Positions 20,429 through 22,994 of a stretch of 64,000 nt of DNA are shown in pieces. Every line of letters starts with the position of its first letter. Position 1 is the stretch's first letter. The DNA comes from Sphingomicrobium lutaoense (lineage in GTDB: Bacteria > Pseudomonadota > Alphaproteobacteria > Sphingomonadales > Sphingomonadaceae). The position numbers were made by a program, and so were the translations under genes. The stretch is taken from the NCBI RefSeq assembly GCF_014195685.1, contig NZ_JACICF010000001.1:280992-344991 (forward strand). Reading direction: 5' to 3'. Below the pieces are notes generated by a model. It was not told where the DNA came from. It did not search any database and saw nothing but the letters and a program-made list of their open reading frames with translations.

Positions 20429-20502
20429 TGGAGGCCCGAGCCGGAATCGAACCGGCGTGCAAGGATTTGCAGTCCTCTGCGTAACCACTCCGCCATCGGG
20501 CC
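20429..20502 (-). tRNA. tRNA-Cys (GCA), CCA encoded
   Basis: Read on the minus strand, the acceptor strands GGCCCGA (from 20502) and TCGGGCC (ending 20433) pair fully. The anticodon loop is CTGCAAA with anticodon GCA, the T-arm contains GGTTCGATTCC, and the gene ends T-CCA at 20429. Length is 74 nt including CCA. The 5' half (20466-20502) is duplicated 2.4 kb away, so this intact copy was rebuilt by an integration event and its upstream sequence is island DNA. Confidence 0.96.
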
Positions 20503-20504
20503 TC
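20466..20504. repeat. left attachment repeat (attL), 39 bp
   Basis: These 39 bases, from the anticodon loop of tRNA-Cys to 2 bp beyond its 5' end, recur exactly at 22910-22948 in the same orientation. Identity stops abruptly on the tRNA-outer side and becomes patchy on the anticodon-stem side, where only 6 of the 9 neighbouring bases match. This is the expected signature of site-specific integration with crossover in the anticodon loop. Confidence 0.88.
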
Positions 20505-20544
20505 ATCGGCAGGAAACTGCGGATCATTGCATATGCCATAACCC

Positions 20545-20580
20545 GAGTTTGCAGTCTTCTTCGATAAGAGTTTGCAGTTT
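20545..20580. repeat. left-end pair of 9-11 bp arm-type repeats
   Basis: GAGTTTGCAGT occurs at 20545-20555 and again at 20568-20578, 23 bp apart, about 40 bp inside the left attachment repeat. The second copy extends to GTTTGCAGTTT (20570-20580). The same word occurs near the other end of the island and also resembles TTTGCAGT in the core of the attachment repeat itself. Paired, helically phased short repeats beside an att core are typical of tyrosine-integrase arm-binding sites. Confidence 0.5.
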
Positions 20581-20712
20581 GAGTGGTATTTCGTTGTGAT
20601 TTGAGTGGCTGATAGCGACGCGAAATTCACGACGCAAGAGGTTGCGCGATTTAAGAAGTCCGCAACAAAGTGCCCGGCAGAACCTTTCGATGGTATGCGC
20701 CAAAAGGTTTTA

Positions 20713-20740
20713 TTGATCCCTTTTAGTGCGCGGCTATACT
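20713..20740 (+). promoter_or_regulatory. putative sigma-70 promoter for the avcD leader
   Basis: TTGATC (20713-20718) and TATACT (20735-20740) are separated by 16 bp, a good housekeeping-type promoter in an otherwise GC-rich genome. Transcription would start near 20747 and run toward avcD, giving a leader of about 370 nt before the coding start. Confidence 0.5.
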
Positions 20741-20746
20741 GTCATC

Positions 20747-21116
20747 GATTAATGTAAGCGGAGGGTGCAAGTTTGGTGCGTGATTCGAGGCGTTTGAAAC
20801 GCCCTTCTCATCTGCAAGCCGTTCCTCTCGAAGTCTTGAGTGATTCTCACCGAGAATCAACTCTGCGGCTTTCCAGCTACTTCAGTCTTAGCATCTCCGG
20901 ATCAGAGTTCCGTACGACTTCAGTCCAGCGCTCATTTTTCTGGAAAGACACGCCCATACGACGAGCCATCCGATCAGCGGTCTCGGCTAGCCTGCGTTCA
21001 TAAGTATTTGAATCAGCAGTGTGATTGTTCACAGCACGGTCCCCCTTTTGCTTCGATATGTCACGATAAGCATGAAGCGCGCGCTTTTGCAACGGGCCGA
21101 CTAATAGGAGTTTCGA
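20747..21116 (+). ncRNA. candidate AvcI-like antitoxin RNA / structured leader of avcD
   Basis: In described AvcID systems an RNA encoded just upstream of avcD keeps the deaminase inactive. Here the upstream stretch has a promoter, no convincing coding frame, and several hairpins. At 20789-20803 GGCGT pairs with ACGCC. At 20838-20863 an 11-bp stem with one bulged A and a 3-nt loop is built on TGATTCTC / GAGAATCA. At 21020-21033 TGTGA pairs with TCACA. End points are not determined, and a separate small RNA may cover only part of this span. The function is inferred from position and structure. Confidence 0.4.
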
Positions 21117-22730
21117 ATGGCGAACGAGCCGAAAGCGAAGACACATCCCGAGCTAGTAATTGGGATAGCGGGTCCGATCGGGATCGACATTGATGCGATG
21201 ACCGACGAGATCACTCGTGCACTCAAATCGGTTGGATATGACTCTCATCCCATTCGTGTAACTCAATTGATGGAGAAATATGAGGCGCCCGGAGTGAAGA
21301 AGGCGAAAAAAGACTATTTTTCGCAAATGAATTACAAAATGGATTACGCAAACAAGCTTTGCGAAGTGGCAGACGACCCCGCTTTTCTCATGCGCGTGGC
21401 TGTCCAAGGAATTGCCCAGGTGCGGAGAGCTCAAAATGCCACGAAAGGTCAAAATTCGGCTACTCAAGGTGAAGGTGAGCCCACTGAGGAAGAAGACCCG
21501 CAGGTGCTGCCTTCAACGGCATACATTATCCGTCAGTTGAAACGTCCTCAGGAAGTAGAGCTGCTTAGGAAAATATACGGGAAGCTTTTTGTACTGGTGT
21601 CTGGTTACGGAAGCGAAGAACACCGTCGTGCCCGGGTTCTTGAGAAGGGCCGATCGACATTGCCAGTGTCAACCAAGCGTCCTGATTTAGAACGAAAAAC
21701 CGCTGCACTGATTGAACGCGATCACGACGAAGGGTTAAGCAAGCACGCTCAGCATCTCCGTGATACTTTTCACCATGCGGACGTGTTTGTAGACGGCATC
21801 AATCGCGATCAGATGAAAACCGGCATTGAGCGCTTTTTTAACGCCTTTTTTGGGCGCGTTGATGTTGGGCCGACAAAATCGGAATATGGTATGTATGCGG
21901 CTAAAGCAGCATCACTGCGCTCGACCGATCTTTCTAGGCAAGTGGGTGCTGCTGCATTCACACAAGATGGGGATCTTATTTGCCAAGGATGTAACGAGGT
22001 TCCGAAAGCCTTTGGCGGAACATATTGGTATGGCGAAGAGCCTGATTATCGCGATGTTCGTCTAGGCTTTGATCCCAACGACAGTTTGAAAAAAGACGTA
22101 ATCCGGGACCTTCTTGAAAAGCTAGAAGATGGGGGGCTTCTCTCTGCGGCTATTAAAGACGCAGTTTGGTCCGAAGACTTCGTCGACGAGTTATTGGGAC
22201 GGGTAGAGAAAGACGCTCAGCATATCGGATGCCTTAAAGATTCTCTGATAACTGCTCTAACTGAATATGGCCGTGTCGTGCATGCCGAAATGGTTGCAAT
22301 TTGCGACGCAGCGCGTCTCGGGAAGCCGCTGAAGGGGTCGATCCTCTACGTGACTACATTTCCTTGCCATGGCTGCACGAAACACATTCTCGCGGTGGGT
22401 ATAAAACGTGTCGTGTACATGGAGCCTTATCCAAAGAGCCGTGCTAAAGAGCTTCATTCGCATGAAATTGAGATCGAAAAGTTAAGCGAAAATAAGCTAT
22501 CATTTCTGCCATTTCTTGGCATTTCTCCGTATCGCTATCGTGACATATTTGAAAAACAATCTCGAAAGACGGGGGGAAAAGCCCGCACATGGTATAGCGA
22601 GGATGATGAACCTCGCCCAATGCTACCGATCTCCGATCCGATCTACCTAGAAAACGAAATGCTTGAGGTCGCGAAAATGGGGGGCTCCTTTGGGCCCGCT
22701 GGCGATCCAAAACCGCAAATCGATGAGTAA
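21117..22730 (+). CDS. avcD: AvcD-type antiphage dCTP deaminase
   Basis: This 537-residue protein has an N-terminal nucleotide-kinase-like part beginning ELVIGIAGPIGIDIDAMTDE (residues 12-31), the non-canonical P-loop start seen in this family. It also has a C-terminal zinc-dependent deoxycytidylate-deaminase domain from about residue 262 (AAKAASLRSTDLSRQVGAAA). The zinc site is complete: H389-A-E391 (HAE) and P416-C417-x-x-C420 (PCHGC). AvcD enzymes deaminate dCTP/dCMP during phage infection, starving phage DNA synthesis, and are held in check by the RNA AvcI. The start has TAGGAG 9 bp upstream. Codon use is AT-richer than flanking genes. It is the sole large gene of a tRNA-Cys island. Specificity between dCTP and dCMP is not visible from sequence. 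Confidence 0.88.
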   Translation: MANEPKAKTHPELVIGIAGPIGIDIDAMTDEITRALKSVGYDSHPIRVTQLMEKYEAPGVKKAKKDYFSQMNYKMDYANKLCEVADDPAFLMRVAVQGIAQVRRAQNATKGQNSATQGEGEPTEEEDPQVLPSTAYIIRQLKRPQEVELLRKIYGKLFVLVSGYGSEEHRRARVLEKGRSTLPVSTKRPDLERKTAALIERDHDEGLSKHAQHLRDTFHHADVFVDGINRDQMKTGIERFFNAFFGRVDVGPTKSEYGMYAAKAASLRSTDLSRQVGAAAFTQDGDLICQGCNEVPKAFGGTYWYGEEPDYRDVRLGFDPNDSLKKDVIRDLLEKLEDGGLLSAAIKDAVWSEDFVDELLGRVEKDAQHIGCLKDSLITALTEYGRVVHAEMVAICDAARLGKPLKGSILYVTTFPCHGCTKHILAVGIKRVVYMEPYPKSRAKELHSHEIEIEKLSENKLSFLPFLGISPYRYRDIFEKQSRKTGGKARTWYSEDDEPRPMLPISDPIYLENEMLEVAKMGGSFGPAGDPKPQIDE

Positions 22731-22909
22731 CAAATCTGTTGTACAAATATCGGCAACGGGGCTTGCGACCCTGATGTTCTTACGCCTCAATCGTTGCTCA
22801 TAGGAACGCACAAAAGTTAGCAGTTTGGAGCTCTTTCCTCTGGAGAGAAATTTCCAAGCCTCACGGCAAAAACTGCAAACTATCGCGGAAATCTGGGGAT
22901 GTGCCCGGC
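22731..22909. other. non-coding right end of the island with arm-type repeats
   Basis: No gene is seen here. GTTAGCAGTTT at 22816-22826 is one mismatch from the left-end repeat GTTTGCAGTTT. AAACTGCAAAC at 22870-22880 is its exact reverse complement, about 30 bp from the right attachment repeat. No clear terminator for avcD was found. The arrangement mirrors the left end and supports an attP-like origin for both ends. Confidence 0.5.
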
Positions 22910-22946
22910 TTTGCAGTCCTCTGCGTAACCACTCCGCCATCGGGCC
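22910..22946 (-). pseudogene. 5' half of tRNA-Cys (right attachment remnant)
   Basis: This is an exact copy of the tRNA-Cys 5' half from the acceptor strand through the anticodon loop. The 3' side of the anticodon stem has changed (GCCGG instead of TCCTT in the minus-strand sense), and the T-arm and 3' acceptor strand are missing, so it cannot fold as tRNA. It is part of the 39-bp direct repeat 22910-22948. It marks the original chromosomal position of the tRNA 5' end before insertion of the island. Confidence 0.88.
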
Positions 22947-22948
22947 TC
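22910..22948. repeat. right attachment repeat (attR), 39 bp
   Basis: Identical and in direct orientation to 20466-20504. The period between the two copies is 2444 bp. Beyond 22948 the sequence returns to ordinary GC-rich chromosome leading to the Pcm-like gene. Confidence 0.88.
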
Positions 22949-22954
22949 GGAGGT

Positions 22955-22994
22955 GGAATGGGGCCGTTTGGTCTAGCCCGCCCCCGCTTGTCAA
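22955..22994 (-). promoter_or_regulatory. probable original tRNA-Cys promoter, now driving only the half-tRNA
   Basis: On the minus strand a perfect TTGACA is at 22994-22989, with CTAGAC-like bases downstream as a weak -10, about 43 bp before the 5' end of the half-tRNA at 22946. Spacing fits a native tRNA promoter with initiation some 10 nt before the mature 5' end. The insertion separated it from the working tRNA copy. Confidence 0.45.

Follow-up and report, generated by a model that had tools for sequence, protein, structure and literature searches.

A single AvcD-type deaminase gene between phage-type attachment ends at tRNA-Cys in a sphingomonad genome

The window, the whole 64-kb stretch of sphingomonad DNA analysed here, contains a 2,444-bp AT-rich insert with one gene, an anti-phage dCTP deaminase of the AvcD type, which is bounded by perfect 39-bp repeats at tRNA-Cys. 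Judged by their sequence, the ends of this island form a complete phage-type attP, in which the tRNA-Cys core is accompanied by two P-arm and two P′-arm predicted integrase-binding sites. The reading that we prefer, and to which we give a probability of about 65%, takes the island for a site-specific element that is non-autonomous, consists of a phage-type attP and one AvcD gene, and was integrated in trans. An integration route by a clade of tRNA-Cys integrases found in relatives is well supported by sequence comparison, and we infer integration in trans, present-day mobility and defence activity.

The left copy of the repeat (attL, 20466..20504) and the right copy (attR, 22910..22948) are identical at 39 of 39 positions and 94% identical over 48 nt, with a spacing of 2444. 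The left copy lies in an intact tRNA-Cys gene (GCA anticodon; 20429..20502, minus strand; ARAGORN, and Rfam RF00005 at 63.3 bits), which is the only one in the genome (its anticodon-arm site GACTGCAAATC was found once in a genome search). The window holds no third core. The repeat corresponds to the 5′ half of the tRNA, from the anticodon loop to beyond the 5′ end, and a 37-bp core is identical in relatives and phages. Since the duplicated part is the promoter-side half of the gene, the intact tRNA-Cys has the island on its upstream side. This orientation is the reverse of that in the usual 3′-end integration, a point absent from the earlier note, which had reported a single gene exactly between two perfect copies of part of tRNA-Cys, in DNA richer in AT than its surroundings. 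Both observations hold: the repeats enclose one credible gene, and the G+C content of the island is 0.493 versus 0.639 for the window. Base composition is uniform at 49% throughout the island, in the gene and the non-coding flanks alike.

A TTGACA box (22989..22994, minus strand), the orphaned −35 box of the native tRNA-Cys promoter, lies upstream of the truncated 5′ half at 22910, at a distance of 48 bp, and TTGAC occurs at −47/−48 in the displayed empty sites of congeners. The position of this box identifies the right-hand copy, which joins the upstream sequence of empty sites, as the chromosome’s original tRNA-Cys 5′ half, so that the 5′ half of the intact tRNA and the DNA upstream of it are now derived from the element. 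Several other elements at tRNA-Cys have TTGAC at about −37/−38 or −49 in the DNA that precedes the restored tRNA. This suggests that those elements may provide an essential tRNA with a new promoter, whereas the new DNA upstream of the displaced single-copy tRNA-Cys in the window holds no TTGACA-like box.

In 23 congeners the site is empty. An intact tRNA-Cys without an insert stands beside the same PCMT-family gene, and no arm-like sites occur within 160 bp of the tRNA at these 23 sites. Among 71 genus genomes, all of them species representatives, the left end of the island occurs in the window’s own genome and in none of the other 70. One copy of the 2.4-kb island is known in species-representative genomes, so that transfer of the integrase-less form is unobserved. 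A search of related genomes for the uninterrupted tRNA-Cys had been proposed beforehand, with presence of the 2.4 kb in all members and no empty site as the outcome that would speak against an island; the 23 empty sites settle both points in its favour.

The features that assign the ends to a phage-type attP are four integrase arm-type sites of the form AGTT[TCA]GCA[CG]T, which the earlier note had not described. The expanded arm consensus has exactly four occurrences in the 64-kb window, all at the ends of the island. On the left, P′-arm site 1 (AGTTTGCAGT, 20546..20555, plus strand) is located at +80 from the core start, with +78 to +80 in relatives, and P′-arm site 2 (AGTTTGCAGT, 20569..20578, plus strand) at +103, with +99 to +101 in relatives. 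On the right, P-arm site 1 (AGTTAGCAGT, 22815..22824, plus strand) is at −95 from the right core, and P-arm site 2, an inverted AGTTTGCAGT (22872..22881, minus strand), is at −38, with −37 to −39 in relatives. The variant AGTTAGCA at −95, an apparent mismatch, is what several phages carry at that place, and the related locus L217 has AGTTCGCAGT at −96. A conserved P-arm block, ACTATCGCGGAAATC (22879..22893, plus strand), adjoins the core and is also present in the phage attPs L233, L250 and L251, and nearly so in L246. In a BLAST search the sole non-coding DNA of the island with a match is its last ~30 bp, which match phage P arms.

The window offsets of +80, +103, −38 and −95 compare with +79, +100, −37 and −94 in the uninterrupted attP of a 42-kb IMG/VR contig (L240), with +79, +100 and −39 at L064, with +78, +99 and −39 at L204 and L221, and with +80, −39 and −96 at L217. 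All four arm positions are filled in the island, versus at most two of four in 20,000 shuffles of its ends, a test whose consensus was derived from the window as well as from the family and whose offsets were taken from relatives. A scan of genome contigs for the double-arm pattern returned repeat-rich matches, mostly from Bacteroidetes, and no locus with a tRNA-Cys core; it was set aside.

Elsewhere in the family, the same attachment anatomy accompanies an integrase. A 3.4-kb element in another genus (G315) sits at tRNA-Cys with the same polarity, its copies of AGTTTGCAGT stand at offsets that match, and it codes for a tyrosine integrase (Pfam PF00589) and a HicAB pair. Relatives of this integrase were found in 12 of 398 family genomes. 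Those with at least 50% identity are at tRNA-Cys wherever a tRNA is in view, and most of the more distant ones are at other tRNAs. A search for the left-end anatomy recovered 8 of the 398 genomes, or 11 with a looser pattern. Phage contigs of 36–49 kb in IMG/VR carry the same integrase together with the tRNA-Cys 5′ half. Integrases of the clade retain the catalytic residues R197, H291, R294 and Y326, so the autonomous relatives would appear to be functional. The tRNA-Cys core, which it had been suggested might bound an integrase or other cargo in related genomes, accompanies an integrase in the 3.4-kb element, in other family elements and in the phage contigs.

The island itself has no such enzyme. 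A tblastn search with 22 clade integrases gave no integrase remnant in it, the best E value among the matches listed being about 0.05, which is noise, and comparison of the island DNA with phages and plasmids gave no match; these searches bear out the earlier statement that it contains no integrase, plasmid or phage gene. The window’s genome (G000), estimated to be 100% complete, has no member of the clade that could serve as a helper. Three tyrosine recombinases are present in this genome, one beside tRNA-Ser and two without a match to the clade query. The first of these, a 396-aa integrase adjoining tRNA-Ser (L224, C2:458474), probably marks another island.

The sole cargo is an intact gene for a 537-aa protein (21117..22730, plus strand), which had been recognised from the sequence as an AvcD-type deaminase with an HAE and PCxxC site, and this assignment is confirmed. 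The protein scores 445.5 bits against the NCBIfam equivalog NF041025, ‘anti-phage dCTP deaminase’, passing its cut-off of 400, and has an E value of 1.6e-147 against PADLOC dCTPase; its zinc motifs, H389-A390-E391 and P416-C417-x-x-C420, are conserved in homologues. NF041025 and PADLOC place it in the anti-phage type, and not with the ordinary dCMP deaminases that had been named as the alternative. As to a P-loop-like N-terminal domain, the NF041025 alignment begins at residue 12, but the loop reads GPIGIDI and is without the SGCTT of the loop GPVGSGCTT in the homologue of a congener (G198). Of 200 family genomes, 11 have AvcD-like genes; the homologues in G008 (55%) and G198 (34%) have neither a tRNA-Cys core nor arm sites next to them. 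IMG/VR gave no AvcD match; the matches in the phage collection, which are 36–38% identical, are unverified scaffolds of ~5 kb and were excluded from the analysis.

A promoter-like site, TTGATC-16-TATACT (20713..20740, plus strand), precedes the deaminase gene; it is weak, and such sites are no commoner than chance. Between this site and the gene is a non-coding leader of 376 nt (20741..21116, plus strand), which could be a candidate place for an AvcI-type RNA antitoxin. A search of the leader for an AvcI-like RNA gave no Rfam family and no excess folding (fold z-score +1.03). Two other candidates in this region were rejected. A SAM_alpha match in the RNA search of the leader, at 18.6 bits with a gathering threshold of 36, was taken as chance, and an 89-aa open reading frame on the minus strand (20877-21146), which has no Pfam, PADLOC, PHROGs or plasmid match, is regarded as spurious.

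Since the element has no mobility enzyme of its own, it probably borrows a phage integrase. In the mechanism that we propose, a phage or integrative element from another sphingomonad would provide, in trans, a tyrosine integrase of the tRNA-Cys (5′-half) clade, and this enzyme would carry out recombination at the anticodon loop between the core of the element and tRNA-Cys on the chromosome. The 5′ half borne by the element would restore the tRNA, and the native promoter would be displaced by 2.4 kb. Re-excision would occur only if such an integrase, together with any excisionase required, entered the cell, and transfer between cells would require transduction, transformation or co-transfer; the island yielded no recognisable signal for packaging or conjugation. 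By analogy with Vibrio AvcD, the resident deaminase may deplete dCTP/dCMP when a phage infects the cell. That the island would need mobilisation in trans had been supposed in the earlier note; the arm sites in the right geometry at both ends and the lack of a clade integrase in island and genome lend this direct anatomical support, and the movement itself we infer.

The tRNA-Cys site has other occupants in the family. A 31.7-kb prophage-like element in G402 (L204 and L221, cores at 2314 and 34035) encodes, besides its clade integrase, a DNA methylase and a type IIG restriction enzyme, so that the site hosts other defence cargo as well. In G100, a 10.8-kb element (L217, 1996-12834) with both cores and arms at the offsets given above is integrase-deficient, with an integrase stub of the last 60–100 residues only beside attL; its cargo is a 995-aa phrog_18693 protein (unknown function, 984 bits) and GGDEF/EAL genes. 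In G276 the integrase of a prophage-like element of about 52 kb is split, and G263 and G017 keep attL with no matching right end. At the G017 locus (L265/L266), where attL arm sites are present at tRNA-Cys and no right core was found, about 7 kb of genes separate the tRNA from the PCMT gene; the two are neighbours in the window’s congeners, and the element at this locus seems to be decayed or fixed. Two tRNA-Cys cores in G390 (L203, 17649-17848) are 163 bp apart with an N-run, an assembly gap, between them; the locus has P-arm-like and P′-arm sites and adjoins an integrase-bearing element, and the paired cores are probably tandem elements collapsed in the gap. A core with P′-arm sites in G150 (L206, C27 position 4321), which is without the tRNA 3′ half or opposite P-arm sites, may be a secondary site or a rearranged element.

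Decay at the tRNA-Cys site, as in G100, G276, G263 and G017, favours the principal alternative, in which the island is a deletion remnant resembling the CIMEs considered below: a tRNA-Cys element or prophage would have lost all but its ends and the deaminase, and the island would be stuck. Loss of the integrase after arrival would leave a similar appearance, and the prophage-like relatives in G402 and G276 are large. However, integrase or phage DNA is undetected in the 2.4 kb down to noise level, the uniform composition of gene and flanks is unlike that of a spliced remnant, and the four arms and both 39-bp cores are intact, though recency alone could explain the last point. We hold a remnant to be unlikely, while granting it a real minority share of the probability.

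A second alternative is that the island was a passenger in cis: an integrase-bearing element would have stood in tandem with it at tRNA-Cys, the pair would have been excised as a single composite, and the partner would since have gone. The tandem occupation in G390 and the tandem accretion described for CIMEs (PMC5704250) give this some plausibility, but the window genome has no partner now and there is no third core, and we consider it distinctly improbable. A chance origin, in which a tRNA duplication left the repeat behind and the deaminase is a nucleotide enzyme passed on by vertical descent, has nothing in its favour beyond the family-wide occurrence of AvcD-like genes, and is scarcely tenable against the congener empty sites, the foreign base composition, the phage-shared arm geometry and the equivalog match.

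Integration in trans, the reading that we prefer, offers a possible route for single defence genes without a visible mobility gene, namely a borrowed phage attachment site. Such borrowing would account for some ‘orphan’ defence genes at tRNA genes. Because arm-site geometry can be searched without an integrase gene, other integrase-less cargo should be findable by attP anatomy. A whole class of minimal hitchhikers, each with a complete phage attP and one defence gene, lacking recombinase and packaging genes, and moved by integrases of the very phages that the cargo may oppose, is a tentative extension that we think rather doubtful.

The island shares its core, polarity, arm positions and P-arm block with the sphingomonad phages and elements at the 5′ half of tRNA-Cys; these encode an integrase with HicAB, type IIG restriction or phage genes, whereas the island has AvcD alone. 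Phage satellites (P4-like, PICI and PICMI), some of which carry defence genes, have helper dependence in common with the proposed island. Known satellites hijack particles and have several dedicated genes, while for the single-gene island, which has no packaging-redirecting gene, attachment-site sharing alone is supported. Helper-dependent elements, including phage satellites, have been reviewed as hitchers (PMC11389934). CIMEs, defined as decayed ICEs or IMEs and often in tandem, keep attL and attR while integration and transfer genes are missing (PMC5704250). The island likewise has attL and attR and no integration or transfer genes, and no remnants of ICE, IME or phage genes were found in it; it differs from CIMEs in its phage-type attP ends, its single gene, the lack of a visible decay remnant and the lack of a tandem partner. 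The ssrA islands of Dehalococcoides are also bounded by repeats of an RNA gene and lack the recombinase of their sister islands but, unlike the window island, they are associated with a serine recombinase, rdhA metabolic cargo, the 3′ end of tmRNA and tandem arrays (PMC3146451).

In its passage on 5′-end tRNA integration, PMC6563490 refers to Zhao and Williams (2002) for recombination with the 5′ part of a tRNA as known and infrequent; there, as in the island, recombination is at the 5′ and not the 3′ part. AvcD deaminates dC nucleotides once infection has led to the loss of AvcI, a labile RNA antitoxin (PMC10511110). The AvcID system of VSP-I in Vibrio cholerae has the deaminase family and the HAE and PCxxC site in common with the island gene, but it resides in a larger island and its AvcI has been shown, whereas no AvcI-like RNA is recognised in the window leader (PMC10511110, PMC9455884). 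The 4.6-kb ColRNAI plasmids of Klebsiella (e.g. NZ_CP033778) resemble the island in having AvcD-type main cargo on a very small carrier; unlike it, they replicate, encode a protein 30% identical and have no tRNA attachment site. Integrase-less islands with att sites are already known, so the novelty that had been suggested for a free-standing unit of this size is confined to its minimal form, and what differs from the known systems is the combination of a complete phage-type attP with a single defence gene only.
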